64,000 nt of DNA. Origin: Roseobacter sp. SK209-2-6. Its GTDB lineage: Bacteria > Pseudomonadota > Alphaproteobacteria > Rhodobacterales > Rhodobacteraceae. Made by a program: the position numbers and the translations under genes. A model generated the notes under the pieces. That model ran no database searches. It was not told the origin of the DNA and saw only the letters and a program-made list of their open reading frames with translations. This document shows positions 19,616-37,687 of the stretch, in pieces (positions within the stretch are counted from its first letter, which is position 1; each line of letters begins with the position of its first letter). The DNA lies in assembly GCF_000169455.1 (NCBI RefSeq), contig NZ_AAYC01000002.1, forward strand, positions 434,001 to 498,000, read 5' to 3'.

Positions 19616-20764
19616 TCAACCCGTCAAGATCCTGGCCAGATACTGCTGGAAGTACCAGACCGTGCGTTCTTTCGGGGACAATCGGCCAGGCGCGGCGGCC
19701 AGGGCACCTGCATTTTTGACAATGCCGCCAATGATCGGCTTGTCCTCGTCATTGATCACGTCAAAACCTGCCTTCAATTCAGCCGCATAGGCGGCGCGTT
19801 CTTCTGGATCATCAGGCACCGCACCGGGAAAATAATCTGCCCCCCAGAGCACCTTGACCTGGTTGGTGCCATGGGGTTGTAGCGACAGCCAAAAGGTGCG
19901 TTCCGCCACCACCGACATCACATGGCAGGGGAAGACGGCGGACAGCACCGCCGTGTTGCGGTCCTCTTCGGTCAGCAGCGGGTTGTCCACCTGCATATCC
20001 GAGGCGCGCTCATAGGATTTTCCCGGAATGCGCCCCTGTTTATAGAGGCTGTGCCCCTCGCTGCCATGCATTGCATTGGCCAGTTTGGTCGGCATCGCGG
20101 GTTCGATGGTTTTGGCATGGGCCACAAACAGGTGATAGCCCTCGGTGAAGTTCTGCACGAGGATCTTCCAGTTGGTGTCCCAGATCTCCTCGGCTCGGAA
20201 TAGGGTGCGGTATTTGTCCAACTGGTAGTTCTCCAGATGCTCCGACAGCATAGTCAGGCGGGGCGCCAGCGGTTTTGCCTCGGCGTCCAGCGAGACATAG
20301 ACCCAGCCCTGCCAGACCTCGACCTGGAACTGCGGCAGGCACACCTCCTTCTTATCAAAGTTCTCCCGCATATGGGCGGCACCAATCAACTGGCCGTCAA
20401 GATTGTAGGTCCAGGCATGATAGGGGCAGGTGATGCGCCCCTTCAGATTGCCCGAGCCTTCCAGCAATGTCGCCATGCGGTGACGGCAGATGTTGGACAT
20501 CGCGCGCAGCTTGCCGTCGCGGTCGCGCAGCACCACCACCGGATCACGGCCTATGGTCATGGTGCGATAGTCGCCCTGGTTCTCGAATTCATCAATCCGG
20601 CCAACGCAGAACCATTCGTGATTGAAGATCTCGTCCAGCTCCAACTCCAAAAATTCAGGCGAGGTATAGATCTGCGGCGGCGTTGCCTCTGCCAGCTCAT
20701 CCGGCAGCTCGGCATTGCGGCGCAGGGCCTCCAACAGTTCCTCAAGGGACATATGCGGTTTCAT
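19616..20764 (-). CDS. Rieske [2Fe-2S] non-heme iron oxygenase, alpha subunit (betaine-demethylase-like)
   Basis: The 382-residue protein has a Rieske domain (about residues 45-150) with cluster ligands in NICRHRMATLLEG and CPYHAWTYN. The C-terminal catalytic domain holds a mononuclear iron motif in NFTEGYHLFVAH. Size and motifs match the Rieske oxygenases that oxidatively demethylate quaternary or tertiary amines, such as the glycine betaine and stachydrine demethylases. It ends the seven-gene operon and overlaps soxG by 23 bases. AGGAGG precedes its ATG. A reductase partner, usually encoded next door, is absent. N-demethylation of the locus substrate is the inferred role. Confidence 0.88.
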   Translation of the reverse strand: MKPHMSLEELLEALRRNAELPDELAEATPPQIYTSPEFLELELDEIFNHEWFCVGRIDEFENQGDYRTMTIGRDPVVVLRDRDGKLRAMSNICRHRMATLLEGSGNLKGRITCPYHAWTYNLDGQLIGAAHMRENFDKKEVCLPQFQVEVWQGWVYVSLDAEAKPLAPRLTMLSEHLENYQLDKYRTLFRAEEIWDTNWKILVQNFTEGYHLFVAHAKTIEPAMPTKLANAMHGSEGHSLYKQGRIPGKSYERASDMQVDNPLLTEEDRNTAVLSAVFPCHVMSVVAERTFWLSLQPHGTNQVKVLWGADYFPGAVPDDPEERAAYAAELKAGFDVINDEDKPIIGGIVKNAGALAAAPGRLSPKERTVWYFQQYLARILTG

Positions 20765-21377
20765 TGTTTGTCCTCCTGGCCAAATGGCTTGCTAGGGGTC
20801 GCTGGTTTTCGACCAAACCATATTGTCGCGCGCTTTCAGAGAGCAGCTCCCACAGGGACTGGGCAGAGCTGCGCGGTATCAGAAGATTGAAGTGATCCGG
20901 ATCTCGCCACAGTGTGACACCCACATGGTGGAAGGCGGTGCTGGCAACGGCTCCCACCGGAAAGGCAGAGCTGCGTAGGTTCAAAGGCAGGAAGTGATTG
21001 AGCAGGGTTTCCGCCCTGTCCCCACTGATGCGCAGCCAGCGGCGTCCATCCTGCATATCCAGAATCACGCCCTCCTGCGGCGCAAGGTCAGTGGGAGGAA
21101 CAGTGGTCCCCGGGGCCGCAATCAGCCACCATTTCAAGGGCTCGACCCGGAGCAGGCTGACTGTGTCGCCCAGCATGCCCTGCCCCGGCTGCGGAGCCTT
21201 TTCGCAGCTCGCCGCAGCGGCGGCTAACCCGCCCACCTGGGGTAGGGTCGCCCCCCAGGCAGCATATTGCAGCAGGGTGAAATCAGAGATCTCTTCCAGG
21301 GTGACGCCTGCAGTGCCAGAGCAGCCAGAGCGGCCTGTTTTTCGATTATTTTGCAGGGGTGACAGGGGATTAGCCAT
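20742..21377 (-). CDS. soxG: Sarcosine oxidase gamma subunit
   Basis: The product of about 211 residues fits SoxG, the small structural subunit of heterotetrameric sarcosine oxidase. Middle and C-terminal parts show WWLIAAPG, DMQDGRRWLRISGDRAETLL, AVASTAFHHVGVTLWRD and FNLLIPRSSAQSLWELL, a GcvT-like folded core. The ATG at 21377 overlaps the soxA stop by eight bases and has GGAG before it, so the longer frame to 21434 was rejected. Its position after soxA is the standard soxBDAG order. Confidence 0.88.
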   Translation of the reverse strand: MANPLSPLQNNRKTGRSGCSGTAGVTLEEISDFTLLQYAAWGATLPQVGGLAAAAASCEKAPQPGQGMLGDTVSLLRVEPLKWWLIAAPGTTVPPTDLAPQEGVILDMQDGRRWLRISGDRAETLLNHFLPLNLRSSAFPVGAVASTAFHHVGVTLWRDPDHFNLLIPRSSAQSLWELLSESARQYGLVENQRPLASHLARRTNNETAYVP

Positions 21378-24342
21378 GCATCCGCTCTCCCTTTGGGTCA
21401 AACATATGCGGCGTGACGATCTCGACCGCGACATCGCCTTTGCGCACAGGGTCGGTTGCTGTCACCGCCCTACCCTGCCAGGCGTCATGACCGCCTGAGA
21501 TATAGCCAAGACCAATCCAATGCCCCAAAGTCGGCGAATGGGTCACCGCAGTGATCCACCCCTCACCAAAGCCCGAAATCTCATCGGGTTTGCACAGCAA
21601 GGCGCCGCCGTTGAAGCTCTCGCTACGGTCTTTGGGGAAGATCCCCACCAGTTGCGGTCGGTCTGCGCGTTCCAATTCAGGGCGTTTCCGCAACACGCTG
21701 CCAATAAAGGACTTTTTGGTCGAGGCCATCTTGCCCAGGCCCGCATCATCAATGGTCACCCGGCCATCCAGTTCGGCCCCGGTCACATGCCCTTTCTCGA
21801 TGCGCAGGGTGCCCAGAGCTTCCAGCCCATAGAGGCATCCCCCCAAAGGCTCGGATGCAGCCCAAAGCAGATCCATCATAGCCTCGCCCTGGTTAGCCGG
21901 GACATAGAGCTCATAGGCCAGCTCACCCGAAAAGCTGATGCGGGCGATCAGGCATTTGATGCCGGACTTCAAACGGGTCTCGCGCACCCCCATGAAGGGC
22001 AGGCTCTCTGCCGAGATCATCTCGGGGTCTGTCAGGCAGGCCGCGATGGCCGCCCGAGATTTGGGTCCGGCAACCGAGACCCCCGCCCATTGATCCGAGA
22101 CAGAGGTTACATGCACCTCCAGCTCGGGCCAGCGAAGCTGCAACAGCTCTTCCAGCCAGACCATGACCTTGCCCGCCCCTGTGGTGGTAGTGGTGAGCAG
22201 AAAGTCATTTTCCGACAGGCGCCAGGTGGTGCCATCATCCATCACCATGCCATCGTCGCGCAGCATGATACCATAGCGCGCCTTGCCCACCGCCAGTTTG
22301 GCAAAGGCGTTGCTGTAGATCCGGTTGAGGAACTCGGAGGCATCCGGCCCCTGCACTGCAATCTTGCCCAACGAGCTCACATCACAGATGCCAAGTGTCT
22401 GGCGCACGGTGGTGGCCTCGCGGATATAGGCTTCGGTGATGCTCTCGCCTGTGCGGCCAAAATACCAGGGACGGTGCCACAGGCCCGCGTCGGTCATGGT
22501 GGCGCCATGGCGCAGGTTCCAATCATGCAGCGGGGTGCGGCGCAGCACTTTGAAATGACTGCCAGTATTGCGCCCAGCCAGGGCCCCGATGGCCACTGGT
22601 GTATAGGGCGGGCGGAAGCGTGTGGTGCCCACGGCGGGAATCTCTTTGCCCAGGGCCTCGGCCATCAGCGCCAGGCCGATGACATTGCCCATCTTGCCCT
22701 GATCCGTGGCCATGCCTAGGGTGGTATAGCGCTTCAGATGCTCGACCGAGACAAAGCCTTCCTGATGGGCCAGACGCACATCAGAGGCGGTGACATCATG
22801 CTGCGGATCGACAAAGCTCTTGGTCTTTTTACCCGGCAAACGCACCTCATAGAGCGGCTTGATCGGGGTTTCCCATCCTGCGCGCACGGGTTCCTTGACT
22901 GGCAATCCAAGTGCTTGATCCGCCGCTGCAATGCCCGAGGCAACGCATTCCTCAGCGCTCCAATGCCCCGCTGCAGAACCCGCTATTGTTACATTCTCCA
23001 CGCTGGGCGCAGGCAGGAAACAGGCCAAAGACTGATCCCAGAGTGGTTTTGCTCCGCGATGGGACAGCAGATTGACCACAGGGGACCACCCTGCCGAGAC
23101 CAGCAGTAGATCACAGCGCAGCGTTTCTGCTACTCTCCAAGCTTCCCCATGTGGACGTGCCAGCCGGACAGCCGAAACAGCCTTGTCCCCGATGGCCTTG
23201 AGTGGAGCGAGACCAGTTTTGATCTGAACACCCGCGACGCGCATCTGCTTTGCTAGCTCTGGCGAAACTTTTGCCCGCAGCTCAACCAAGGTGACCTTGG
23301 CTCCGGCCTGGGCTAGCTCTACCGCAACGCCATAGGCGGAGTCATTATTGGTGCTCAGCACGATATTCTGACCCGGCAGGACGCCATAGCGGTTGAGATA
23401 GCTACGCGCAGCGTTCGCGGTCATCACCCCGGGGCGGTCATTGTTTTCAAAAGCAACCGTGCGCTCCAGTGCGCCGGTGGCCAGAATGGTTGCCGCCGAC
23501 CGGACCGTCCAAAACCGCTGACGCGGGCTGTGCTCTGGCTTTACCGCCAAATGATCGCTCACCCGCTGCAACAGCCCCGCCGTGCCATAGTCATAAAGCC
23601 CAAAGGCAGTGGTGCGTGTCATAATCCGCACCCCTGCCGCCTCAAGCGCTGCAATCAGATCGGCGCGGGTTGTCTCGGCGGTTGGGTCGGCCTGGTTCAG
23701 CAGATCGCCGCCCAGTTCGTGATCCTGCTCCACCAGGATCACATCCTTGCCCTGCTGCGCCGCCCTCAGCGCGGCATTCAACCCGGCAGGACCAGAGCCA
23801 ACCACCAGCACATCGCAAAAGCCATGCATGTGGTCATAGCAATCCGGATCCGCCTCGCGCGAGGCCGCGCCCATGCCGGCAGCTTTGCGGATGAGTTTTT
23901 CATATTGCATCCAGAGGCCGGTGCCGCGCCCCCACTCAAAAGGCGGCAGACCCATGAAGGTCTTGTAGTAAAAACCCGCCGAGAAGAACCGGCCGAACAG
24001 CCCTAGCGCTGCACCGATATCGCTGCGCACATTGGGCCAGGCGTTTTGCCCCGAGGCCACCAGCCCGTCATAAAGCTCAACCATGGTGGCCTTGGTATTG
24101 GGTTCCGCCCGATTGCCTGTGCCCAGGGTCACAATGGCGCCGGATTCCTCCACCCCTGCAGACATGATGCCGCGCGGGCGGTGATACTTGAAACTGCGGC
24201 CCAGTACCACCTCGCCATTGGCCATCAAAGCCGAGGCCAGGGTGTCACCGGCAAAGCCCTGATAGGCCCTGCCATCCCAGGTAAAGCGAAGCGGGCAGCT
24301 GCGGTCGATGCGTCCGCCCTTGCTCATGCGTGTCGCGCTCAT
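21370..24342 (-). CDS. soxA: Sarcosine oxidase alpha subunit
   Basis: The 990-residue subunit of heterotetrameric sarcosine oxidase binds NAD and tetrahydrofolate. In order it has an N-terminal ferredoxin-like fold (about residues 10-100, with FKYHRPRGIMSAGVEE), a nucleotide-binding domain starting DVLVVGSGPAGLNAALRAA (~170), a second dinucleotide site with NIVLSTNNDSAYGVAVELA, and a C-terminal GcvT-type folate domain (~600-990). The last contains GICDVSSLGKIAVQGPDASEF and GLEALGTLRIEKGHV. The complex oxidises N-methyl amines and passes the methyl carbon to THF. GGAGG lies before the ATG at 24342, which overlaps the soxD stop (ATGA). Confidence 0.94.
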   Translation of the reverse strand: MSATRMSKGGRIDRSCPLRFTWDGRAYQGFAGDTLASALMANGEVVLGRSFKYHRPRGIMSAGVEESGAIVTLGTGNRAEPNTKATMVELYDGLVASGQNAWPNVRSDIGAALGLFGRFFSAGFYYKTFMGLPPFEWGRGTGLWMQYEKLIRKAAGMGAASREADPDCYDHMHGFCDVLVVGSGPAGLNAALRAAQQGKDVILVEQDHELGGDLLNQADPTAETTRADLIAALEAAGVRIMTRTTAFGLYDYGTAGLLQRVSDHLAVKPEHSPRQRFWTVRSAATILATGALERTVAFENNDRPGVMTANAARSYLNRYGVLPGQNIVLSTNNDSAYGVAVELAQAGAKVTLVELRAKVSPELAKQMRVAGVQIKTGLAPLKAIGDKAVSAVRLARPHGEAWRVAETLRCDLLLVSAGWSPVVNLLSHRGAKPLWDQSLACFLPAPSVENVTIAGSAAGHWSAEECVASGIAAADQALGLPVKEPVRAGWETPIKPLYEVRLPGKKTKSFVDPQHDVTASDVRLAHQEGFVSVEHLKRYTTLGMATDQGKMGNVIGLALMAEALGKEIPAVGTTRFRPPYTPVAIGALAGRNTGSHFKVLRRTPLHDWNLRHGATMTDAGLWHRPWYFGRTGESITEAYIREATTVRQTLGICDVSSLGKIAVQGPDASEFLNRIYSNAFAKLAVGKARYGIMLRDDGMVMDDGTTWRLSENDFLLTTTTTGAGKVMVWLEELLQLRWPELEVHVTSVSDQWAGVSVAGPKSRAAIAACLTDPEMISAESLPFMGVRETRLKSGIKCLIARISFSGELAYELYVPANQGEAMMDLLWAASEPLGGCLYGLEALGTLRIEKGHVTGAELDGRVTIDDAGLGKMASTKKSFIGSVLRKRPELERADRPQLVGIFPKDRSESFNGGALLCKPDEISGFGEGWITAVTHSPTLGHWIGLGYISGGHDAWQGRAVTATDPVRKGDVAVEIVTPHMFDPKGERMHG

Positions 24343-24623
24343 GCCGTCACCTCCAGAGCCTGGGCCATGTCGGGATGCGCCGGGCGCACGGAATGGATCT
24401 CGTGGGTCATGGTATCGCGCTCCACCAAAAGCCACATGCGGCAGCCATTGACATGATGCCAGGTCTCGACCTGTCGCCCGCAGATGTTTTCGCGTTGAAA
24501 CACCGCATCGTGCCAGTCCTCCATCGGCGCATCCAAGGCCGGGTATTTTATCGAGCCATCGCCGCCATAGGAAAACTCACTATGATCGCGGGTGCCGCAA
24601 AAGGGACAGGGAATTCTGATCAT
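24339..24623 (-). CDS. soxD: Sarcosine oxidase delta subunit
   Basis: SoxD is the ~94-residue zinc-binding subunit of the tetramer. The N-terminal IRIPCPFCGTRDHSEFSYGG gives two zinc Cys ligands and a His. The C-terminal part has the family's WHHVNGCRMWLLVERDT with a further Cys. AAGGAGAT precedes the ATG. It starts 11 bases after soxB and its stop overlaps soxA, as in known soxBDAG operons. Confidence 0.93.
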   Translation of the reverse strand: MIRIPCPFCGTRDHSEFSYGGDGSIKYPALDAPMEDWHDAVFQRENICGRQVETWHHVNGCRMWLLVERDTMTHEIHSVRPAHPDMAQALEVTA

Positions 24624-24634
24624 GTGGTATCTCC

Positions 24635-25906
24635 TTATCCGTGCAACTTGGGGTCGGGGCCAGCGCCGCGCTCATCCAACTGGATGCCACGCTCAAACCG
24701 TTTAAGATCATGGTTGGCGACCACCCTATGGGGGCGGTCATTCGCGATGAGATCGGCAAAATAGGTGCCCGAGGCTGGGGTGGCCTTGAAGCCGCCGTAG
24801 TTCCAGCCGGCGTTCAGATAGAGATTGTCCAGCGGGGTTTTGGAGATGAAATGCGAGCCATCCATCGACATATCAACTACGCCAGACCAATGGCGCAGCA
24901 GCCGCACCCGCCCTAGGCAGGGCAGCACCGACATCGCCGCCTCGGCCACGTCTTGAACGATGGGCAGGTTGCCCTTTTGGGCATAGGATTTGTACCAATC
25001 CAGATCGCCACCAAAAACCATGCCACCCTTGTCGGACTGCGAAATGTAGAAATGCGCCCCACCCATTCCAAAGACCACAACCTGATCCAACAGCGGCTTT
25101 AGCGGCTCCGAGACAAAGGCCTGCAATTTGTGGGATTCAATGGGCAGGTGGCGCATCCCCGCCAATGACCAGAGCCGCGAGCTGCTGCCTGCCACTGCAA
25201 GGCCGAGCTTATAGGTCGAGATCCGGCCACGCGAGGTTTCAACCCCCGTCACCCTGCTGCCATCCCGGGTGATACCGGTGACTTCGCAGTTCTGAATGAT
25301 GTCGATGCCCAGCTGATCAGCCGCCCGCGCATAGCCCCAGATCACCGCATCATGGCGGGCGGTTCCGGCGCGTTTGTGCACGGCGGCCCCCATAATCGGG
25401 AAACGAGCCGTGGCATCATAGTTCAGATGCGGCGCAGCTTCTTTCAGCCGTTCCAGGCTCCAGATTTCCGCATCGTCATTGCCGGTGAGCCGCATGATGT
25501 TGTAGTTGCGCGAAGCCGCATCAATCGCACCGGGACTGTGCAGCAGAGTGATATGGGAGCGCTGACTGAACATCACATTGTAGTTCAGCTCGTGGCTCAG
25601 CTCTTCCCAGAGCTTCAACGAATGCTCATAGAACTCACGGTTGCCCGGCTGGGTGTAGTTGGAGCGCACAATAGTGGTGTTGCGCCCCGCGTTGCCGCCA
25701 CCAATCCAGCCCTTTTCCAAGACCGCGATATTGTGAATACCGTGGTTCTTGGCCAGGTAATAAGCGGTGGCGAGCCCATGCAGTCCGCCGCCGATGATCA
25801 CCACATCGTAATGCGGCTTTGGTTCCGGATCACGCCACTGACGGCTCCAGCCCTTTTGACCGGACATCCCCTGCCAAAAGACATTCCATGCGGAAAATCT
25901 AGTCAT
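24635..25906 (-). CDS. soxB: Sarcosine oxidase beta subunit
   Basis: SoxB is the FAD/FMN catalytic subunit that oxidises the N-methyl group of sarcosine-like amines. The protein of about 423 residues has the FAD-binding start VVIIGGGLHGLATAYYLAKN, the GWIGGGNAGRNTTIVRSNY segment, and KRAGTARHDAVIWGYARAAD. The latter corresponds to the region that carries the covalent FMN His in characterised enzymes. The end reads LNAGWNYGGFKATPASG. The frame stays open to 26134, antisense-like and without homology, so the ATG at 25906 (MTRFSAWNVFWQGMSGQKGW) was chosen. It starts 22 bases after the racemase-like gene. Confidence 0.93.
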   Translation of the reverse strand: MTRFSAWNVFWQGMSGQKGWSRQWRDPEPKPHYDVVIIGGGLHGLATAYYLAKNHGIHNIAVLEKGWIGGGNAGRNTTIVRSNYTQPGNREFYEHSLKLWEELSHELNYNVMFSQRSHITLLHSPGAIDAASRNYNIMRLTGNDDAEIWSLERLKEAAPHLNYDATARFPIMGAAVHKRAGTARHDAVIWGYARAADQLGIDIIQNCEVTGITRDGSRVTGVETSRGRISTYKLGLAVAGSSSRLWSLAGMRHLPIESHKLQAFVSEPLKPLLDQVVVFGMGGAHFYISQSDKGGMVFGGDLDWYKSYAQKGNLPIVQDVAEAAMSVLPCLGRVRLLRHWSGVVDMSMDGSHFISKTPLDNLYLNAGWNYGGFKATPASGTYFADLIANDRPHRVVANHDLKRFERGIQLDERGAGPDPKLHG

Positions 25907-25928: not shown

Positions 25929-26726
25929 TTAGGCGGTGCGTTGCAGCAACTTGCCGGGATGTTTGAAGATCTGGCCAAAGCCCTCCAGCTCATCCATGAT
26001 GCCGGCGCGGCGCAGGCAGGACCAGAATTGCGCCTGGTTCGAGGTAATAACTGGTTTCCCAGTGATCTGCTCGATCTCCTGTACGGCGGGAAGCGAACGC
26101 ACCCCACCACAGCTGAGGAAGATCGCGTCCGCATCGGGTTGATCGATCTCCAGCGCGAATTCCTTCCAATACTCAGGCGTCACCAGCCCCATGTCCCAGC
26201 CGCTGGCGATATTGAGCCCCTGGATATCCAGCACATCAAAACCACGTTCAACCAGGAACTCTGCCTCCGCCGTATTGATGTCATCCAGATAGGGTGTGCC
26301 AACCACCAGCTTCTTCGCACCCAGTTCGTCCAGAGCGTCCAGCACCCCTTGCACCAAACACATCGGCTGCGCCCAGGGAGCGCCCTTCTTGATCTCGGCC
26401 ATGACCCGCTCTTCACCGATCACGATAGAGCCCGAGGTGCAGCTGTAGCTGACCACATCCGGCCGTGCCTCCGGTTGAATACGCGCCGCAGCATCGGCCA
26501 TGTGCTCGATATGCTTGGCAAGTGTTTCGGTGGTGGTGTGATCATCTGTCTTCAGGCGGGTGACATAGACCGCCACCCCTTCTGGGGCCATGTCCCAGAA
26601 ATCCCCCTCAGCCGAGGGATCGGTGGACATCAGAATAAAGCCGAGCTTGGCTCGGTGGAATCGTCCGCCATCCATTTCAGGCGTGCGAGGTTTGGACTGA
26701 ATGGTTTGACCAGGCTGAAACATCAC
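25929..26726 (-). CDS. Asp/Glu-racemase superfamily protein (EutA / arylmalonate decarboxylase / maleate isomerase-like), copy 1
   Basis: The 265-residue protein has the two-cysteine signature of this superfamily: SYSCTSGSIVIG near residue 115 and FLSCGGVRSLPAVQEIE near 205. It belongs to the branch with maleate cis-trans isomerase, arylmalonate decarboxylase and EutA of ectoine catabolism. These enzymes act by Cys-mediated proton or double-bond chemistry next to a carboxylate. Its GTG start overlaps the stop of the M24 gene (GTGA); an ATG one codon later is equally possible. Pairing with an M24 gene resembles eutD-eutA. The substrate is unknown. Confidence 0.85.
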   Translation of the reverse strand: MMFQPGQTIQSKPRTPEMDGGRFHRAKLGFILMSTDPSAEGDFWDMAPEGVAVYVTRLKTDDHTTTETLAKHIEHMADAAARIQPEARPDVVSYSCTSGSIVIGEERVMAEIKKGAPWAQPMCLVQGVLDALDELGAKKLVVGTPYLDDINTAEAEFLVERGFDVLDIQGLNIASGWDMGLVTPEYWKEFALEIDQPDADAIFLSCGGVRSLPAVQEIEQITGKPVITSNQAQFWSCLRRAGIMDELEGFGQIFKHPGKLLQRTA

Positions 26727-27930: not shown

Positions 27931-27992
27931 ATTGCTGGAAATGCCGTTTTCAAAATGACTTTTCATCCCAAATCATGATAACTCATGGTTAT
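27931..27992. promoter_or_regulatory. LysR-type regulatory element A, shared with 32238-32299
   Basis: In this 62-base block 44 positions are identical, without gaps, to a second block at 32238-32299. Shared cores are ATTGCT, TTTCAAAATGAC, TTTCAT, GATAACT and TGGTTAT. It contains a dyad, ATAAC-N5-GTTAT. It lies between the M24 gene and the divergent lysR and overlaps the lysR start codon, which suggests autorepression and activation of the operon. Confidence 0.65.
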
Positions 27993-29694: not shown

Positions 29695-30362
29695 TACTTA
29701 AGCCCCAGTTTACGACGCACCCGCCCTTCGACCAGCCGGATCAGACCCGCAGCAGGAAGAGAGATTGCAAGGAAAATGATGCCAACCATCGTGAAGGGTT
29801 CCAGAAAACGGTAGTGCTCTGACCCGATGGCATTGGCAGTGTGAATGAGTTCGGCGACCCCGATGACCGACAACATCGGCGTATCCTTGAAGATACCAAC
29901 CAGATAGTTGCCCATGCCCGACAGGGCCGAAGGGATCGCCTGCGGAATGATGACACGGCGGTATTTCTGTACCGTCGTCATATTGAGCGCGATCGCCGCC
30001 TCCCATTGCCCCTTTGGCACGCTGTCAATGCCGCCGCGATAGACTTCGGACAGGTAGCAGGAGTAATGCAGCCCGATGGCGATCATCCCCGACATCCAGG
30101 GGCTGAGGCGAATACCAAACTGCGGCCCAACGTAAAAGATAAAGAATATCTGCAACAAGAGCGGGGTGGAGCGGATGAACTCAACAAATTCACGCACCAC
30201 AAAGGTCAACCCGCGATAAGGGCTGCGCTGCGCGATGGCGAGGGCAAGCCCCAACACCAAAGCGATGGCATAGCCCGCGCCAGCCGCCAGCAGGGTATTG
30301 CCGGTGGCCGTTACCAGGCGGGGCAGGATTTCCCAGGCGAATTCCCATTTCCAGTCAAACAT
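29694..30362 (-). CDS. ABC transporter permease (polar amino acid family, EhuD-like)
   Basis: The 222-residue inner membrane protein has about five helices. The cytoplasmic EAA loop of the HisM/GlnP family is visible as SVPKGQWEAAIALNMTTVQKYRRVIIPQA (about residues 110-140), which contacts the ATPase. The N-terminus FDWKWEFAWEILPRL and first helix are typical of the paired permeases. It starts three bases after the first permease and overlaps the ATPase gene, so translation is coupled. Confidence 0.92.
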   Translation of the reverse strand: MFDWKWEFAWEILPRLVTATGNTLLAAGAGYAIALVLGLALAIAQRSPYRGLTFVVREFVEFIRSTPLLLQIFFIFYVGPQFGIRLSPWMSGMIAIGLHYSCYLSEVYRGGIDSVPKGQWEAAIALNMTTVQKYRRVIIPQAIPSALSGMGNYLVGIFKDTPMLSVIGVAELIHTANAIGSEHYRFLEPFTMVGIIFLAISLPAAGLIRLVEGRVRRKLGLK

Positions 30363-30365
30363 GGA

Positions 30366-31031
30366 TCATGCCCTCCCCATTTTGCGGGCCATGTAGCCCT
30401 CGAGCCAGCGCATGAAGGGCGTGACCATGAAACGCGCCAGAATGTAGTAGATGACCAAAGCGGCGCCGAAGGCCTGGGCCGACAGGAAGGTGGAACTGTT
30501 GATCTGTTTGGTTTCAAACATCAGGTCAGCCACCGAAATCAGGGAAACCAGCGCTGTGCCCTTGAGCAGTTCAATCATCAGATTGCCCCAGGGCGGCAAC
30601 ATATTGACCAGAGCCTGCGGGAGGATGATCCGCTGCATTCGCTGCGCCGGGGACATATTGATCGCCAGCGCTGCCTCCCATTGCCCCTTGGGGACAGAAA
30701 GAATGCCGCCGCGCACCAGCTCAGCCCCATAAGCGCCGATGTTCATGCCCACTGCCACATAGCCGGCGGTGAATTTGTCAATTGTTACGCCGAACAACGG
30801 CAAGACAAAGAAGATCCAATAGAGCTGCACCAAAAGCGAGGTGCCGCGAAAGATCTCGATATAGGTGACCGCAGAACCACGGATCAGCTTGTTGGAAGAC
30901 AGCTTCATCAGCCCCATCATCAGGGCGATAGTTACACCGAGAATGGCCGCGAGGAAGAACTGCGCAACGGTCATACCGCTGCCAGCAAGAAGACGCGGCC
31001 AGTACTGGATAACGAAATCAAAGATATTCAT
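30366..31031 (-). CDS. ABC transporter permease (polar amino acid family, EhuC-like)
   Basis: The 221-residue partner permease has the same fold and an EAA loop reading SVPKGQWEAALAINMSPAQRMQRIILPQ. It has five hydrophobic helices, starting with MTVAQFFLAAILGVTIALMMG. The frame runs open to 31175, but those extra residues overlap the binding-protein gene and are not hydrophobic, so the ATG at 31031 (MNIFDFVIQYWPRLL) was chosen. It follows the substrate-binding protein gene by 70 bases. Confidence 0.92.
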   Translation of the reverse strand: MNIFDFVIQYWPRLLAGSGMTVAQFFLAAILGVTIALMMGLMKLSSNKLIRGSAVTYIEIFRGTSLLVQLYWIFFVLPLFGVTIDKFTAGYVAVGMNIGAYGAELVRGGILSVPKGQWEAALAINMSPAQRMQRIILPQALVNMLPPWGNLMIELLKGTALVSLISVADLMFETKQINSSTFLSAQAFGAALVIYYILARFMVTPFMRWLEGYMARKMGRA

Positions 31032-31101: not shown

Positions 31102-31950
31102 TCAGCGGTTGCCGCAGACCCATTCTGCCGTTTTGTCACCGGGCAGATGCGACGGGGTGTAGCCGTATTCAGCAACAGCGTTCAGCATTGCGTCGCTGCC
31201 GACATAGCTTGCCAAGGCTGCGTTGAACTTTGCCATGAACTCTGCGTCTTCGTCGCGAAAGCCGATGCCGACCCAGTTTTTAGTCCATTCAGGCAGCGCC
31301 GAGGGATCGGTCACTTCGAATTTGCCTTCGGACTGGTCCGCCAGATACAGCGCCTCGAAATAGGTCAGCGCTGCAGCATCCGCACGGCCCGCGTTCATCG
31401 CTGCAAGGGTCTCCGTCGGGCCAGGCACCTGCATCATCTGCCCATCGCTCAGGCCTTCCTTGCGCGAGGCTTCGACAGTGTTTGCACCGGAATACATGAT
31501 CAGGACGGAACCGTCGTTGGATAGAACATCCTTGTAGTTGTTGATGTTTTTCGGGTTACCGGCAGGCACCAGGAAGGCATCGCCCATGGAGCCGATCGGC
31601 TCGGAGAAGGCGATGTTCTGGCAGCGGCTGTTCAGGATATAGAGACCACCGGTGATCATATCATAGCGGTTGGCCTTGAGGCCGGGGATCAGCCCGCCCC
31701 ATTCGGTGACCGTAGTTTCCACTTCGGTGTGACCCATCTCCGCCAGAATGCCGAGAGCAATCTCGTTGACAAAGCCTTTGGCGTTTCCGTCCTCATCAGG
31801 AAAACCCCAGATCGGGATATTGGAAAAGCCGATCCGGATCGGCTCGCCCGCTGCAATCCGATCCTCCAGTGGTCCGGCAAACACCGATACGGTGCTCAGA
31901 ACTGTTGCGGCCACTGCGGTGCCGAGTGCCTTAAATAGTGTGCAAGTCAT
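31102..31950 (-). CDS. ABC transporter substrate-binding protein (EhuB-like)
   Basis: The 282-residue protein is exported by a Sec signal (ALGTAVAATVLSTVSVFA, cleavage near residue 25). It has the family-3 solute-binding fold: IRIGFSNIPIWGFPDEDG, then TEWGGLIPGLKANRYDMI, then GGLYILNSRCQNIAFSEP. That Cys-containing segment resembles EhuB, the ectoine/hydroxyectoine receptor, more than HisJ or GlnH, which supports a small zwitterionic compatible-solute-like ligand. The ligand itself cannot be read from sequence. GGGAGG precedes the ATG. It is the first gene of the transport operon. Confidence 0.9.
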   Translation of the reverse strand: MTCTLFKALGTAVAATVLSTVSVFAGPLEDRIAAGEPIRIGFSNIPIWGFPDEDGNAKGFVNEIALGILAEMGHTEVETTVTEWGGLIPGLKANRYDMITGGLYILNSRCQNIAFSEPIGSMGDAFLVPAGNPKNINNYKDVLSNDGSVLIMYSGANTVEASRKEGLSDGQMMQVPGPTETLAAMNAGRADAAALTYFEALYLADQSEGKFEVTDPSALPEWTKNWVGIGFRDEDAEFMAKFNAALASYVGSDAMLNAVAEYGYTPSHLPGDKTAEWVCGNR

Positions 31951-32237: not shown

Positions 32238-32299
32238 ATTGCTACAAATTCGCATTTCAAAATGACCTTTCATGTGGCCATTTGATAACTTGTGGTTAT
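32238..32299. promoter_or_regulatory. LysR-type regulatory element B, shared with 27931-27992
   Basis: This is the ungapped partner of element A (44 of 62 positions identical), including TTTCAAAATGAC and the ATAAC-N5-GTTAT dyad. It lies about 290 bases upstream of the binding-protein gene and past the 3' end of the dimethylglycine-dehydrogenase-like gene. It most likely serves the transport operon. Confidence 0.6.
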
Positions 32300-32333: not shown

Positions 32334-34793
32334 TCAGTCCTGGCCCGTCAGCATGCGTTTGCTCTGCGGGTCATAGAACGGAGCGAGGCTGACATCGGCC
32401 GGTATGCTCTTGCCTTCGACCAGCACGGTAAAGGCGCCCTTCGCCACCCTATCCTTCTCTGTTTGGCCTTGCGGAAGCTGCAACAGGCAGAGCCCAACCG
32501 CCGAACCGAGGCTCTGTCCCCAGGCGCCGGCTGTGACGTAGCCCGCGATTTTGCCATCCCGCAGAACTGGCTCGTTGTGATGCAAGAGCGGCTCTGGATC
32601 CTGAAGCTTGATGGAACAGAGGAAGGGGCCCTTGTTTTCCGCCCTGCGCGCCAGATAGGCGTCGCGGCCAATAAAGGGGATCTCTTTCTTTGTCTTGCAG
32701 ACAAACTCCATCCCCAGCTGATGCGGCGCTTCGGTATAGGCCATCTCGTGGCCCCAGTGCACAAAGCCCTTTTCCAGTCGCAGGGCATTCAAAGCCTCGC
32801 CGCCGATCAGACACAAGCCATCCTGCGCGCCCGCCTGCATCAACAACTCAAAGACATGTTCGGCAAAATCGGGGGTGATAAAGATCTCCCAGCCCATTTC
32901 GCCGGAATAGGACAGACGCTGAGCAAAGACCGGCGCGTGGCCAATGTGGAAATGCTGCAGGCTATTGAAGGGGAAGGCCGCGTTTGAGGCATCAATTCCG
33001 CTGACGCGCTGCAACAAATCACGGCTTTTGGGGCCCATGATGCCCAGCACGCCATAGGCAGAGGTCGCATCCCGCAGGCGCAGATCTTCGCCGAGCTGGA
33101 TCAGATCCCGCAGATGCAGATAGTCGCGGCGGGTGTGAGAGATCGAGCTCATCACCATGAAGCTCTCATCGCCGTGGCGCGCCACGGTGACATCGCTTTC
33201 GATACCGCCGCGTTCATTCAGCATCAGCGTGTAGACAACCCGCCCATTTGCCATGGCCATATTGTTGGTGCAGGCCCGCTGCAGGAAGCTCTCGGCGTCT
33301 TTGCCTTCGACCATCAGCTTGCCCAGCATGGTGTAGTCGATCAGCGCCACGCCTTCGCGCGCCGCCTTCTGCTCTTCCAGCACATGGGGGAACCAATTCT
33401 GGCGGCCAAAACTGTATTCATACTTGGGCTCGACCCCGTTGGGCGCGAACCAACCGGGGCGTTCCCAGCCCTGCGCCTCGGCATAGCAGGCCCCTAGTGC
33501 TTTCATCGGGTGATAGAACGGCGTGCGGCGCAGATTGCGCGCGGTTTCCCGCTGCCGGTTGGGCCAATGCATCGCATAGGTCAGCACCAGAGTCTCGGGG
33601 CAGCGTTCCTGCAGATAGGGGTCGCGCGCCTGGAATTCCTCGCAGCGCTTTGGGTCCATCTCGCTCAGATCAATAGGCGGGTGCCCGTCAATAATCCACT
33701 GCGCCAGTGCCCTGCCCGCGCCAGATCCGGACTGAATACCGGTGGAATTCACCCCGCCCAGCACAAAGTAATTCGAAATGTCAGGCGCCTGCCCCAAGAT
33801 GAAACGGCCATCGTAAGAATAGCTTTCGGGCCCATTAAAGAAGGTGCGGATTCCGGTTTCCTGCAGCAGCGGCACCCGGTTCATCGCCAGTTCCAGCACC
33901 TCCATCACGTCCTCTTCGACAAAGGGCAGGCTGTCGTATTCAAAGCTTTCCGAAATGCCTTTTATGCCCCAGGGCTTGGCCTGAAAATGGGCAAAGCCAA
34001 AGAGCAGCTTGCCGGCGTCTTCCTTCCAATAAGTGCCATCGCAGTAAGAGCGCAGAACCGGCAGATCGCTGGGCAGATTGTCGATAGCCTCAGTGACCAG
34101 ATAGTAATGCTCGCAGGCGTGCAGCGGCACCCCGACACCGTTCTGACGGCCCAGATCCCGCGCCCACATGCCACCGCAATTGACCACATAGTCGGCCCGG
34201 ATGGTGCCCCGATCGGTGCGCACGCCCACGGCCATGCCGCCTTCGGTCAGCACCTCTTCGACCTTGGTATATTCAAAGATCTTGGCGCCACGCATCCGCG
34301 CCCCCTTGGCCAGGGCGGTGGTCAGGTCCACCGGGTTCGCAGAGCCATCGCTGGGCATATAGATGCCGCCCAGCACGCCTTCGGGGTTCATCAGCGGCCA
34401 GCGTTCCTGGATTTCGGGGGTTTCAAGATATTGCGCCTCAATGCCAAACAACGCGGCAAAATCCGCCTTACGCTTCAGCTCGGCCATACGCTCGTGATTG
34501 GTAGCAACAGAAATGGAGCCCGAGCGGCGATAGCCGGGATTCTGGCCAGTCTCGGCTTCGATCTCTTCCAGCAGTTCGATACCATATTTGGCAAAGGCGG
34601 TGGTGGCGTGGCTGCCCTGAAGCTGCCCGACCAGCCCCGCAGCATGCCAGGTGGTGCCCGAGGTCAGCTGTTTGCGCTCCAGCAGGACCACATCGGTCAA
34701 CCCCTGTTTGGCCAGATGATAGGCCACGGAACAGCCATGGATACCGCCCCCGATGATGACGACCGTTGCCTGTGGTGGAAGATGCTTGCTCAT
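32334..34793 (-). CDS. Dimethylglycine dehydrogenase-like FAD/folate oxidoreductase
   Basis: This 819-residue two-module enzyme has an N-terminal DAO-type FAD domain with VVIIGGGIHGCSVAYHLAKQG. Its SGTTWHAAGL motif holds the His that binds FAD covalently in dimethylglycine dehydrogenases. A FAO-type linker follows near residue 380. A C-terminal GcvT folate domain (~450-815) has GVALIDYTMLGKLMVEG and GGEALNALRLEKGF. The family oxidises N-methyl amino acids and transfers the methyl carbon to tetrahydrofolate. It ends a three-gene operon with an M24 hydrolase and a racemase-like gene. The natural substrate may differ from dimethylglycine. Confidence 0.9.
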   Translation of the reverse strand: MSKHLPPQATVVIIGGGIHGCSVAYHLAKQGLTDVVLLERKQLTSGTTWHAAGLVGQLQGSHATTAFAKYGIELLEEIEAETGQNPGYRRSGSISVATNHERMAELKRKADFAALFGIEAQYLETPEIQERWPLMNPEGVLGGIYMPSDGSANPVDLTTALAKGARMRGAKIFEYTKVEEVLTEGGMAVGVRTDRGTIRADYVVNCGGMWARDLGRQNGVGVPLHACEHYYLVTEAIDNLPSDLPVLRSYCDGTYWKEDAGKLLFGFAHFQAKPWGIKGISESFEYDSLPFVEEDVMEVLELAMNRVPLLQETGIRTFFNGPESYSYDGRFILGQAPDISNYFVLGGVNSTGIQSGSGAGRALAQWIIDGHPPIDLSEMDPKRCEEFQARDPYLQERCPETLVLTYAMHWPNRQRETARNLRRTPFYHPMKALGACYAEAQGWERPGWFAPNGVEPKYEYSFGRQNWFPHVLEEQKAAREGVALIDYTMLGKLMVEGKDAESFLQRACTNNMAMANGRVVYTLMLNERGGIESDVTVARHGDESFMVMSSISHTRRDYLHLRDLIQLGEDLRLRDATSAYGVLGIMGPKSRDLLQRVSGIDASNAAFPFNSLQHFHIGHAPVFAQRLSYSGEMGWEIFITPDFAEHVFELLMQAGAQDGLCLIGGEALNALRLEKGFVHWGHEMAYTEAPHQLGMEFVCKTKKEIPFIGRDAYLARRAENKGPFLCSIKLQDPEPLLHHNEPVLRDGKIAGYVTAGAWGQSLGSAVGLCLLQLPQGQTEKDRVAKGAFTVLVEGKSIPADVSLAPFYDPQSKRMLTGQD

Positions 34794-34812
34794 AGTCTCT
34801 TGGCCTGTCGAA

Positions 34813-35991
34813 TTAGGTGATGATGGGGAATTCGCGCGCTGCCCGGCGCGTCAGCAGTTCGGCGCCATCCTCACGGATGACGATATTCTCTTCGTGCAGC
34901 ATCATTTTACCGTCGCCAAAGGCCAGTCCCGGCTCCAGCGTCAACACCATGCCAGCCTCGATCAGGGTCTCATCCCCGGGCATCAAAGAGGGCCATTCGG
35001 TCACCTGCATGCCAAGGCCATGGCCCATGCGGCCGATCTGATGGCCACTGCAGCCTCCCTCTTCCAGCATCTGCGCCATGACGCCCCAAAGATCGGTGGT
35101 GGTGATTCCTGGGCGGGCGGCTTTCAGACCTGCTTCTGTCGCACACCAGGCCAGGTCATAGGCTGATTTGGCAGCATCCGAGGCATGGCCAAAGGCAAAG
35201 TTGCGATCAAAATCGCAGCTGTAACCATCATAAAGCGCGCCCGTATCCAAAAGCAGCATATCACCTTCGGCGATCACTCGATCCGAAGGGCGATTGATCA
35301 CATCCTCAAATCCGCCGGGGCCCGAACTGCCTACCAGATAGGGCACATCATCGGCGCCTTTTTGCAGCAGGTCGATCTTGAACTTGGCAAAGGCCTGGCG
35401 TTCGGTATCGCCCGCCTTGATGTGCTTTGGCAGGTCCTCAAAAGCGGCAGAGGCAATGCTGCACATCCGGGCGATCTTGGCGATCTCCGCCTCGGATTTC
35501 ACCATGCGCTGGCTGCGCACCACCTCGGTTGCATCCGTTAGCGTGATCCCGTTGAGCCCGGCTTGCAGCCTCTGCAGATCCGCCGCAGGCATACGAACAT
35601 GGGTTTCATGACCCATCGGCAGGCCCAGAGTACCGCCCTTTGGCATGACTTCGCGCAGGGTCTCGCTGAGCAGAGAAATGCCGTCATCCTCGGGCTGCGG
35701 CGCCAGCCAAGTGCGAATGTCGGAGATCCAGGTCAGAGCCATGCTAGGGCCACCAATTTCAGGAATCACCGCAATTGGCGCACCACTGGCGGGGATCACC
35801 ACAAACCAGGGCCGCGTTGGGCTCAGCCAAAATATGGTATCAAAGCCGGTGAAATAGCGCACTTCCGGTTCTGTCGTCAGCAGCATGGCGTCAAGGTCAA
35901 GGCGCGCCATGATCCGTTGCGCCGCCTCCGTGCGCATTTCAAATTCGGCAGTGCTAAAACCGCGTGCGGCGGCGGGATGCAGGTCCGTCAT
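34813..35991 (-). CDS. M24-family metallohydrolase (Xaa-Pro dipeptidase / ectoine hydrolase-like), metal site intact
   Basis: The 392-residue pita-bread protein has all five metal ligands: LLLDTG (Asp), SCDFDRNF (Asp), GHGLGMQ (His), LTLEPG (Glu) and HEENIVI (Glu). The N-terminal domain has VRYFTGFDTIFWLSPTRPW. The family includes prolidases and the ectoine hydrolases DoeA/EutD, which open a cyclic amidine. Here it is flanked by a EutA-like gene one base upstream and the flavoprotein gene 19 bases downstream. An amide or ring hydrolysis on the locus substrate is inferred. Confidence 0.88.
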   Translation of the reverse strand: MTDLHPAAARGFSTAEFEMRTEAAQRIMARLDLDAMLLTTEPEVRYFTGFDTIFWLSPTRPWFVVIPASGAPIAVIPEIGGPSMALTWISDIRTWLAPQPEDDGISLLSETLREVMPKGGTLGLPMGHETHVRMPAADLQRLQAGLNGITLTDATEVVRSQRMVKSEAEIAKIARMCSIASAAFEDLPKHIKAGDTERQAFAKFKIDLLQKGADDVPYLVGSSGPGGFEDVINRPSDRVIAEGDMLLLDTGALYDGYSCDFDRNFAFGHASDAAKSAYDLAWCATEAGLKAARPGITTTDLWGVMAQMLEEGGCSGHQIGRMGHGLGMQVTEWPSLMPGDETLIEAGMVLTLEPGLAFGDGKMMLHEENIVIREDGAELLTRRAAREFPIIT

Positions 35992-35992
35992 C

Positions 35993-36778
35993 TTATTGGT
36001 CTCGGGATCTCAATTGAGTGTGAAAAAGAACGCCTGCGCCTGTAACGCTTTCGCGTATCCCGGCCAGCCGGGCCAGGTGCCAGGCGGTGACCTGATTGCT
36101 CGACAGAACCGGTTTGCCCAGTTGTGCCTCTGCCTCGGCAAGGACCGACAGCACCCGCAGACTGGTGCAGGAGACAAAGACACACTCGCAATCGGTCCGT
36201 GCACCGACCTCTTTGATCGCGGTCAGGATACTGCCAGAGGAGATCCGGGCGACCTTGAAATCATCGGACTGATTAAACGTGCCAATAGCATTCACCTCGA
36301 ACCCCGCTTCCGCCAGGTTACCACGCATTTCTACTGTGACATCAGGTGCATAGGGGGTGATCAATGCGATGCGTTTCAGGCCCAGAGCCCGCAACGCGGC
36401 CTTGCATGCCGTTATGGGATTGCTGGTTTTTGCCTGAGGATGGGCACTTCGCAGGATTTGATCCACCCTGCCCTCGCTAATCATGGTGGCGCCAGAGGTG
36501 CAGCAATAGCCGATGGCATCAAACTCAAAGGATGTCGGGAGCAGCCCTGCGGCGACGGGCAAATCCGCCTCCATTTGCCGCAGCGTATCGCAGGTCACTT
36601 CCATCTCGTTGGGGATCCGCGCGTGATAGAGGGCGACCCCATCCTGACGCAGAAGGCTCGCGACCTCATGCTCAATCGTCTGATCCGATTGCAGCACGAT
36701 CAACCCGATCCGGGCGCGCGCGCCCAGCCCTGCGTCCTGCGCTGCGTTCAGATTTTGAATGTCGGGCGCGGCGCTCAT
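35993..36778 (-). CDS. Asp/Glu-racemase superfamily protein (EutA-like), copy 2
   Basis: This 261-residue protein has both Cys motifs, GYCCTSGATMISEGR and FVSCTSLRVLSVLAEAE. It is more like EutA of ectoine utilisation operons than copy 1 is. It ends one base before the M24 gene starts (TAA-G-ATG), so the pair is coupled as in eutA/eutD arrangements. It heads a three-gene operon whose promoter faces the gntR gene across a region with a double palindrome. No strong ribosome binding site is visible. Its catalytic role is not known. Confidence 0.85.
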   Translation of the reverse strand: MSAAPDIQNLNAAQDAGLGARARIGLIVLQSDQTIEHEVASLLRQDGVALYHARIPNEMEVTCDTLRQMEADLPVAAGLLPTSFEFDAIGYCCTSGATMISEGRVDQILRSAHPQAKTSNPITACKAALRALGLKRIALITPYAPDVTVEMRGNLAEAGFEVNAIGTFNQSDDFKVARISSGSILTAIKEVGARTDCECVFVSCTSLRVLSVLAEAEAQLGKPVLSSNQVTAWHLARLAGIRESVTGAGVLFHTQLRSRDQ

Positions 36779-36886
36779 AGCATGCGCCCGGAAGTCTGGC
36801 AGTTCACGGTTCTATTTCCTCCCTGTACCTCACATCTTGAATTTCATGGGCAACCCATGCAGTCAGAAGAGAGTTCCTTGAGAGGT

Positions 36887-36917
36887 TGGTATATACCACT
36901 ATATTGGTATATACCAA
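36887..36917. promoter_or_regulatory. Double palindromic GntR/HutC operator
   Basis: TGGTATATACCA (36887-36898) and TTGGTATATACCAA (36904-36917) are two perfect palindromes with centres 18 bases apart. They lie 27-57 bases before the gntR start and about 110 bases before the divergent racemase gene. HutC-type GntR regulators bind this kind of GGTATATACC dyad. Confidence 0.8.
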
Positions 36918-36943
36918 GAGAAATCTTGTGAAAGTGAAGTTGA

Positions 36944-37687
36944 ATGAACGAAGACAGCAACAACCAAAGAGCTAAAGGGCCTGCCTTTCAAAAGGTTATC
37001 GAATTCCTGCGTGCGCAAATTCAATTTGGCAAACTGCAGGAACACGCGGCCCTGCCATCGGAACGCGCCCTTGGCGAACAGTTCAACATCAGCAGAATGA
37101 CCGCGCGCAGGGCTCTTCTGGCGCTTGAGATGGAAGGTCTGGCCTATAGTTCTGACCGGCGTGGGCGTTTTGTTTCACCGCAGAGACTGACCTACGACAT
37201 CAGCAAGACAGTCAGTTTTTCGGAACACGCCGAAGAGGGAGCTCTGGGGCTGTCGATCAAACTCGTTTCGCAAGGAATGATAGAGGCCACGCCACAAATT
37301 GCCGCCAAGTTATCGATCGAAGAAGGCAGAGAGCTTTATACCTACACCCGGCTGTTCAGCCTCAAGGGGCATCCGGCCTTTATTGAGGAAGAATTTGCAA
37401 TTGCAGATCTGTTTCCGGACATGTTCAGCCACAGCCTGGAACAATCCACAACGCGGCTCATGGAGCAGGAATACAACATGCCCGCGCATTCCGGCGACAT
37501 CTCCATTCGAATGCGTGCATTGAACGAGGCAGAATCCAAACTTCTGAACTTGCCAACCTATCATGCCGGCATTGAGTTGGAGCAGGTTATTCTGGACCAC
37601 AGAGGTCAGCCGTTCTGTTTTGGCCGACAACTCTGGCGAGGAGAGTTGGCGGAGTTCACAGCCCATGCCGTTGTTCGTAATCGATGA
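36944..37687 (+). CDS. GntR-family (HutC/UTRA) transcriptional regulator
   Basis: The 247-residue protein has an N-terminal GntR winged helix (about residues 10-75: LPSERALGEQFNISRMTARRAL and GRFVSP). A C-terminal UTRA effector domain (~90-240) has LYTYTRLFSLKGHPAFIEEE and FCFGRQLWRGELAEF. UTRA domains bind small metabolites that release the repressor. The divergent racemase/M24/flavoprotein operon and the double palindrome between them make these its likely targets, with control of its own gene. IS fragments begin about 100 bases after its stop, so it is the last intact gene of the catabolic locus. Confidence 0.92.
   Translation: MNEDSNNQRAKGPAFQKVIEFLRAQIQFGKLQEHAALPSERALGEQFNISRMTARRALLALEMEGLAYSSDRRGRFVSPQRLTYDISKTVSFSEHAEEGALGLSIKLVSQGMIEATPQIAAKLSIEEGRELYTYTRLFSLKGHPAFIEEEFAIADLFPDMFSHSLEQSTTRLMEQEYNMPAHSGDISIRMRALNEAESKLLNLPTYHAGIELEQVILDHRGQPFCFGRQLWRGELAEFTAHAVVRNR

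Follow-up and report, generated by a model that had tools for sequence, protein, structure and literature searches.

A candidate locus for uptake and stepwise demethylation of an N-methylated ectoine-like compound in Roseobacter sp. SK209-2-6

In Roseobacter sp. SK209-2-6, 16 genes organized as three tight operons plus two regulators are found at positions 19616-37687 of the window, i.e., the whole 64,000-nucleotide stretch of DNA that was analysed (Table 1). Operon 1 is carried on the minus strand in the order M24_1, EutA1, SoxB, SoxD, SoxA, SoxG, and Rieske, and neighbouring genes in it either overlap by 4 to 23 bases or are separated by 11 to 22 bases. Operon 2 encodes an importer, EhuB-C-D-A, running from 31950 down to 28879, while operon 3 comprises EutA2, M24_2, and a DMGDH-like gene. 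The LysR gene (plus strand) is divergent from operon 1, and the GntR/UTRA gene (plus strand) is divergent from operon 3. When the start codons were checked, the true starts of SoxB, SoxA, SoxG, and EhuC proved to be internal to the longest open reading frames. All the genes named in an earlier note on this DNA were recovered where it had placed them, the layout bears out the three tight operons that it described, and, as it had claimed, eutB, eutC, and eutE are absent from the 16 genes.

Table 1. Genes and operator-like sites of the locus, in window coordinates; scores and cut-offs in bits.
Feature	Position	Strand	Remark
Rieske-type oxygenase, CntA/GbcA-like	19616..20764	-	conserved Rieske and iron-site residues
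SoxG-like subunit	20742..21377	-	67 vs family cut-off 144, below
SoxA, heterotetrameric sarcosine-oxidase alpha subunit family	21370..24342	-	1250 vs cut-off 1164
SoxD-like subunit	24339..24623	-	98 vs NCBIfam cut-off 116; Pfam SoxD passed
SoxB, sarcosine-oxidase beta subunit family	24635..25906	-	616 vs cut-off 529
EutA1, EutA-like two-cysteine racemase-superfamily protein	25929..26726	-	C96, C206
M24_1, creatinase-like hydrolase without M24 metal ligands	26723..27865	-	
Putative LysR operator TTTCAAAATGACTTTTCAT	27948..27966		between M24_1 and LysR
LysR (GcvA-like) regulator	27985..28866	+	
EhuA-type ATPase of importer	28879..29694	-	399 vs cut-off 345
EhuD-type permease	29694..30362	-	273 vs cut-off 205
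EhuC-type permease	30366..31031	-	236 vs cut-off 197
EhuB-like binding protein	31102..31950	-	179 vs cut-off 191, just below; altered ligand box
Second putative LysR operator TTTCAAAATGACCTTTCAT	32255..32273		about 300 bases upstream of EhuB
DMGDH-like FAD/folate N-demethylase	32334..34793	-	
M24_2, M24 metallohydrolase	34813..35991	-	five metal ligands
EutA2, second EutA-like protein	35993..36778	-	C93, C204
Putative GntR operator, tandem TGGTATATACCA palindromes	36887..36916		
GntR/UTRA regulator	36944..37687	+	

Concerning the demethylating enzymes, the Rieske protein retains the CxH/CxxH motifs, the two iron-site His residues, and Glu208 in all 20 aligned rows. Its best NCBIfam match is GbcA, but it reaches only 143.8 against the equivalog cut-off of 670, and among solved structures it matches carnitine monooxygenase best, in an alignment limited to residues 21-227; a Rieske reductase was not found among the 16 locus genes. 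SoxA (1250.5 vs 1164) and SoxB (616.5 vs 529.45) pass the heterotetrameric sarcosine oxidase subfamily cut-offs, whereas SoxD (97.6 vs 116.5) and SoxG (67.1 vs 143.95) do not reach theirs, SoxD nevertheless passing the Pfam cut-off (96.9 vs 27). The DMGDH-like protein presents a full-length FAD plus GcvT match, and H50, H229, and Y255, which we take to be the FAD-His and the active-site His and Tyr, are present in 24/24 rows. Among 72 EutA1 loci of relatives, the Rieske gene was observed in 18 and a PhyH oxygenase gene in 10, and when DMGDH loci truncated by a contig end are set aside, all 23 that remain have exactly one of the two. Rieske and PhyH oxygenase substitute for one another at the locus, never co-occurring among the 72 loci. 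DMGDH is not seen in five of the 18 Rieske loci, and SoxB is found in none of the PhyH loci.

The two M24 proteins reported previously are both present, although they are not equivalent. M24_2 keeps all five metal ligands in 37/37 rows, whereas M24_1 lacks them and instead conserves F43, R45, H221, D253, and D342 (58/58 rows). Both fall short of the EutD/DoeA equivalog cut-off of 613 (84.6 for M24_1 and 64.9 for M24_2). The best solved match of M24_1 by sequence is creatinase, which also ranks first in Foldseek, followed by prolidase at a near-equal E-value, with EutD at rank 28; the AlphaFold models (mean pLDDT of 80.7 and 77.8, with stretches 39-42 and 311-328 of the M24_1 model below 50) do not firmly separate creatinase from prolidase. 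In comparison with the creatinase site, whose residue roles are assumed here, the His, Arg, and Phe are retained in M24_1, but Asp stands in place of both substrate Glu residues and Leu in place of the second carboxylate Arg. The two EutA-like proteins score 179.7 and 185.6, below the EutA equivalog cut-off of 318, and fall into separate clades in a 26-row tree that carries a long-branch warning. Their cysteine pairs are invariant, in 71/71 rows for EutA1 and in 22/22 for EutA2.

The EhuABCD-like importer had also been recognized before, and it turned out to be closer to ectoine-like uptake than that description implied, since three of its four subunits pass the ectoine-importer equivalog cut-offs (EhuA 399.3 vs 345.4, EhuC 236.0 vs 196.95, and EhuD 273.2 vs 205.2). 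The EhuB-like binding protein misses its own cut-off (178.8 vs 190.9). Its pocket is formed by I45, W48, W84, Y104, and R109, so that the Arg and the aromatic cage are retained while the Glu used by EhuB is replaced by Ile or Val in 27/27 sequences. For the EhuB ectoine-box residues, the positions in 2q88 agree with a uniform +1 offset.

Regarding regulation, perfect copies of the LysR-side operator occur only twice in the 4.55 Mb genome, at the promoters of operon 1 and of the importer, and the putative GntR operator lies upstream of GntR in 16/16 sequences, from loci of both the Rieske and the PhyH types. LysR would therein control operon 1 and the importer, and GntR would control operon 3, each regulator being paired tentatively with its putative operator. 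The presence of a GntR regulator was anticipated by the earlier note; its type is now corrected to UTRA, unlike the GntR of ectoine clusters, which is described as MocR/EnuR type (PMC5924519).

A search for neighbourhood conservation, as the earlier note had suggested, revealed that both the M24_1/EutA1 pairing and the larger gene set are conserved. At least one partner gene is found near the EutA-like gene in 59/72 relatives, while 13/72 EutA1 loci, some on short contigs, have none of the partners. Considering same-strand M24_1/EutA1 pairs in the 72 loci, 34/42 are adjacent (gap <60 bases), including 28 that abut directly; the larger gene set also turns up in several genera. Therefore, this adjacency and recurrence indicate that the grouping is not due to chance.

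Elsewhere in the same genome, and unlinked to the locus, there is an Lrp-M24-DpaL-M20 block with its own M24 copy. Its DpaL passes NF006058 (478.7 vs 276) and TIGR01747 (281.6 vs 274), but not the E. coli-type TIGR03528 (322.8 vs 532; range 308-323), and its M20 protein is DoeB2-like, with 317 against a cut-off of 550. In one relative (locus L192), M20 and DpaL are contiguous with EhuADCB-DMGDH-M24_2-EutA2-GntR. DpaL was detected in 13/72 EutA1 loci, accompanied by M20 in 13/13, and, conversely, 20 DpaL regions contain an EutA2-like gene in 16 cases, an M24_2-type gene in 15, Lrp in 13, and M20 in 11. Additionally, M24_1 and DpaL occur together in 9 of 295 genomes against 1.95 expected, with p-values that ignore kinship and genome size. 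Since the block is joined to locus genes in relatives, these observations point to an incomplete locus, for which the block supplies eutB/eutE-like functions, and to a diaminopropionate-type end. DpaL-family lyases accept other substrates as well. In E. coli, the ygeXY-type diaminopropionate genes also combine DpaL with an M20 hydrolase, whereas here they are joined to EutA, M24, Lrp, importer, and demethylase genes.

The explanation that best accommodates these data, with a probability of roughly 0.48 and hence slightly short of even odds, is that of an inducible catabolic system in which uptake is followed by stepwise oxidative demethylation of an N-methylated ectoine-like zwitterion and then by diaminopropionate-type lysis. 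Gene content, relatives, active-site conservation, shared operator-like sites, and linkage were established by computation, and we infer the reactions, their order, and the substrate class. The Ehu-type importer would admit a molecule bearing a carboxylate and a cation without N-H donors. The first oxidative N-demethylation would fall to the Rieske oxygenase, whose slot is taken in some other strains by a PhyH 2-oxoglutarate oxygenase with the same task, and further methyl groups would be moved to tetrahydrofolate by the DMGDH-like flavoprotein and SoxBDAG. The C-N bonds of the skeleton could then be hydrolysed by the creatinase-like, metal-free M24_1 and the metal-dependent M24_2, a stereocentre being adjusted by the EutA-like racemases, while the M20 deacylase and the diaminopropionate ammonia-lyase of the unlinked block would finish the conversion of the skeleton to pyruvate and ammonia. 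Counting against this explanation are the ectoine-type scores of EhuA, EhuC, and EhuD, the unlinked position of the DpaL block with its own M24 copy and its score under the E. coli-type model, the EutA1 loci without partners, the Rieske loci in which DMGDH is not seen, the lack of SoxB at PhyH loci, the absence of a Rieske reductase from the 16 genes, and the usual neighbours of M24_1. Import and demethylation of a methylated solute by an ectoine-like, non-ectoine route, as formerly proposed, thus stands as the best account, although the DpaL and M20 steps had been missed. A more specific version appears rather unlikely: an undescribed marine osmolyte built on a 2,3-diaminopropionate backbone, either an N-methylated ring-closed ectoine homologue or an N-trimethyl betaine, would be attacked by Rieske and PhyH as interchangeable first demethylases. 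PhyH would then N-demethylate a quaternary amine in a 2-oxoglutarate-dependent reaction, and the skeleton of the osmolyte would be opened by a dedicated pair of metal-free, creatinase-like M24 and EutA racemase.

Other substrates could call on the same enzyme classes. Were the substrate a known betaine (homarine, carnitine, or proline betaine), the Rieske, sox, and DMGDH enzymes would demethylate it and M24, EutA, and M20 would open the ring or acyl bond. The pocket without the EhuB Glu and the carnitine monooxygenase match favour this unlikely option, but no ring reductase, carnitine dehydrogenase, or proline enzyme is present among the 16 genes, a DpaL end is unsuited to such skeletons, and Mgd, said in PMC13390433 to be involved with the methyl group of homarine, is not among the 16 genes either. 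It seems improbable that M24_1 is a creatinase freeing an N-methyl amino acid from creatine or a creatine-like guanidino compound for demethylation by SoxBDAG: creatinase is its best solved match and the Phe, Arg, and His residues do not vary in 58/58 rows, yet the substitution of Asp for both Glu and of Leu for Arg, the importer pocket without an acidic residue, and EutA, Rieske, DMGDH, and DpaL left without explanation argue against it. The known creatinase-sarcosine oxidase route resembles the locus in that the creatinase-like M24_1 stands near SoxBDAG, but the altered site and the locus genes that have no role in that route set the two apart. An equally low probability is given to small N-methylated or diaminopropionate-containing peptides, cleaved by M24 and M20 dipeptidases with the demethylases processing the released residues; M24 and M20 are peptidase families and prolidases rank near creatinase for M24_1, against which stand the missing peptidase metal ligands of M24_1 and the Ehu type of the importer.

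The earlier note had also regarded the locus as matching neither the ectoine pathway nor plain glycine betaine breakdown, and both readings are indeed set low. The EhuA, EhuC, and EhuD scores raised the weight of a second ectoine or hydroxyectoine pathway and slightly lowered that of the main reading. Counterparts of EhuB, EutA, M24, M20 (DoeB2-like), PhyH (EctD-like), and the lyase exist in ectoine/hydroxyectoine catabolism (ehuABCD-eutABCDE-asnC, doeAB), with which the Lrp/GntR regulators also recur. However, EhuB and all scanned catabolic proteins stay under the equivalog cut-offs, the locus is without eutBCE, the EhuB Glu is lost, and the metal-free M24_1 beside a metal-bearing M24_2, the diaminopropionate-type lyase, and the UTRA GntR differ from that system. 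Moreover, the added demethylases would be left without a role, and a canonical cluster, with an EutD/DoeA ortholog and its usual neighbours, lies separately in the same genome (L059), making this pathway quite improbable here. Most improbable is plain conversion of glycine betaine to glycine by Rieske, DMGDH, and SoxBDAG in series. These three N-demethylase classes at one locus do correspond to the three steps of the GbcAB-DMGDH-SoxBDAG system, and GbcA is the nearest family, but the Rieske score lies far under its cut-off, no GbcB is linked, and the association with M24, EutA, and DpaL would be unexplained. In addition, seven MTTB-family genes and three other SoxB genes are found in the genome, and roseobacters use MtgBCD for glycine betaine demethylation (PMC12478193).

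The literature search, with many subscription papers outside its reach, returned no description of the locus. If the demethylation-and-lysis reading is true, seawater should contain a methylated nitrogen osmolyte that supplies a regulated pathway spread across marine Alphaproteobacteria, and EutA-M24 pairs scoring as distant ectoine genes would gain roles. Importer-based annotation, in which EhuA, EhuC, and EhuD pass here, could then over-count ectoine consumers. Finally, in 20 M24_1 regions, M20 is the direct neighbour in nine and EutA1 lies alongside in only four, one of them broken; as M24_1 is often beside M20 and seldom beside EutA1, it may be a general enzyme put to use at this locus.

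In this 4.55 Mb genome, the system encoded by the three operons is probably an assembly of known families into a new version of ectoine-type catabolism; no description of it was found in the literature searched. The gene content of the locus agrees with that described in the earlier note. Operon 1 runs M24_1 (creatinase-like), EutA1 (racemase superfamily), SoxB, SoxD, SoxA, SoxG and Rieske, with junctions consisting of 4-23 base overlaps or 11-22 base gaps; operon 2 encodes an Ehu-type importer, and operon 3 comprises EutA2, M24_2 and a dimethylglycine-dehydrogenase-like (DMGDH-like) protein. LysR and GntR/UTRA genes sit at the operon promoters.

The putative operator TTTCAAAATGACYTTTCAT has two perfect genome copies; the other eight matches carry 3 mismatches, a reversed control gave no matches, and in many orthologues the site recurred, with 0-4 mismatches, at one of these two places or at both. 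The tandem TGGTATATACCA pair is the only such pair genome-wide within 3 mismatches, and at least one perfect copy precedes GntR in 16/16 sequences (window counted), from both Rieske-type and PhyH-type loci. Through these putative sites operon 1 is linked with the importer, and, judged by them, the two locus types look like one system. LysR and GntR are provisionally assigned to particular sites from their position.

Features of the locus, its surroundings and similar regions of genome G000
Feature	Position	Detail
Locus (described genes)	19616-37687
TTTCAAAATGACYTTTCAT copy	27948	M24_1/LysR
TTTCAAAATGACYTTTCAT copy	32255	upstream of EhuB
TGGTATATACCA tandem pair	36887-36916
Transposase	38598-39413	integrase core; near GntR gene
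Transposase and small adjoining ORF	38598-39724	ORF resembles its partner; IS3-like by appearance
SorX small RNA	386-476	Rfam RF02784, singlet oxygen resistance RNA X
Polysaccharide-type genes	41035-49889	HlyD, glycosyltransferase 2, mannose-phosphate enzyme, UDP-glucose dehydrogenase, then 877-residue RTX-repeat protein
L057	G000:C29:342001-362000	EutA1-like gene (48%), M24_1-like gene (39%) a few kb off
L060	G000:C27:59001-79000	EutA2-like gene (41%) directly after apparent UbiD/UbiX genes; DMGDH-like gene nearby; names read from sequences
L167	G000:C16:90001-110000	two Rieske genes in tandem, 41% and 33-35% identity to window Rieske

Distance from characterized systems was judged by curated equivalog cut-offs. 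EutA1 (179.7) and EutA2 (185.6) fall below 318, M24_1 (84.6) and M24_2 (64.9) below 613, EhuB (178.8) below 190.9 and the Rieske protein (143.8) below 670. However, EhuA (399.3 versus 345.4), EhuC (236.0 versus 196.95) and EhuD (273.2 versus 205.2) pass, which counts against the distance from the ectoine system shown by both EutA proteins, both M24 proteins and EhuB. A separate ectoine cluster lies elsewhere in the genome (L059), its M24 matching EutD/DoeA (E 4e-170). Since the genome contains three further SoxB copies and, apart from the one in the window, twelve DMGDH-like paralogues, ordinary sarcosine/dimethylglycine use may be independent of this locus. Glycine betaine in roseobacters is handled via MtgBCD, according to PMC12478193; seven MTTB-family genes are present here.

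M24_2 retains all five of its metal ligands in 37/37 rows; in the corresponding columns, each of the 40 aligned M24_1 rows shows Cys, Gly, Arg, Asp and a gap. In 58/58 rows M24_1 retains the Phe, Arg and His equivalent to those of creatinase and has Asp in place of both substrate Glu; the second Arg position is occupied by Leu. In Foldseek, creatinase was its first match, with prolidases near behind. Both cysteines are kept in EutA1 (71/71) and EutA2 (22/22); two cysteines characterize racemases and one arylmalonate decarboxylase, and the pattern seen is as in the former rather than the latter. Ligands of the Rieske protein (20/20 rows), the HxD...H motif of PhyH (10/10) and the FAD His and active-site His and Tyr of the DMGDH-like protein (24/24) are likewise kept. 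In the alignment to S. meliloti EhuB, the ectoine positions Glu, Phe, Tyr, Phe and Arg, whose roles are reportedly described in the 2007 EhuB structure paper, become Ile, Trp, Trp, Tyr and Arg; this pattern, as I/V, W/F, W, Y, R, holds in 27/27. Because the acidic partner is lost and the Arg and aromatic cage are kept, these residues suggest a carboxylate-bearing cation without N-H as ligand.

EutA1, used as query against the species-genome collection, gave 72 loci, mostly from Rhodobacterales, plus some Hyphomicrobiales and uncultured marine Alphaproteobacteria. Partners were counted by set identity thresholds, leaving out lower-identity paralogues (e.g. those of L089); 13/72 loci had none of them, some of these on short contigs.

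Partner genes in the 72 EutA1 loci
Partner	Loci
M24_1	41
M20 (deacylase)	27
Second M24_2 type (50-80%)	26
DMGDH	24
EhuB	24
EutA2	21
SoxB	20
LysR	20
Rieske	18
Lrp	17
DpaL (diaminopropionate ammonia-lyase)	13
GntR	13
M24_2 at >=80%	10
PhyH	10

Rieske and PhyH occur together in none of the 72 loci, which are related rather than independent, and SoxB in none of the PhyH loci. Among the DMGDH loci, 13 have Rieske and 10 PhyH; in the remaining one, L072, the contig ends before the Rieske position. No DMGDH was seen in 5 of the Rieske loci.

M20 accompanies DpaL in 13/13 EutA1 loci. In this genome, an Lrp-M24-DpaL-M20 block lies at L166, with open frames of 397 aa (DpaL) and 379 aa (M20), and the DpaL passes 2/3 diaminopropionate-lyase models. 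Another 25 family genomes have a DpaL match; 20 regions were fetched, the other five being L041 and L044 (already covered) and three at 50-52% identity. These 20 regions contain EutA2-like (16), M24_2-type (15), Lrp (13) and M20 (11) genes. At L192, EhuADCB-DMGDH-M24_2-EutA2-GntR-M20-DpaL-Lrp form a single run of ~11.8 kb, with 85% (M24_2) and 76% (EutA2) identity to the window copies; the fetched flanks carried no gene labelled as Rieske, Sox, M24_1 or EutA1. Across 295 genomes, uncorrected for kinship and genome size, M24_1 co-occurred with DpaL in 9 versus 1.95 expected, EutA1 with M24_1 in 5 versus 0.68, and EutA1 with DpaL in 3 versus 0.62. M24_1 does not associate exclusively with EutA1, since in 20 M24_1 regions the direct neighbour was M20 in 9 and EutA1 in 4 (one broken).

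The overall route most likely leads from substrate uptake through oxidative demethylation, in which Rieske or PhyH would act first, DMGDH next and Sox last, to C-N hydrolysis by the M24 enzymes, which the racemases would help, deacylation by M20 and a final lyase cleavage that would yield pyruvate and ammonia, with reaction order and substrate as we infer them. For hydroxyectoine, PMC5924519 proposes a stereocentre inversion by EutA that serves the PLP enzyme EutB; EutA and DpaL here would parallel that pair.

Parts of the system are fragmented at some loci (EutA1 in L037 and L137, M24_1 in L068, EhuC in L080); gene loss or errors in assembly may account for this. In the other M24-EutA set, at L057, two stops were counted within the EutA match, yet a 241-residue frame is open.
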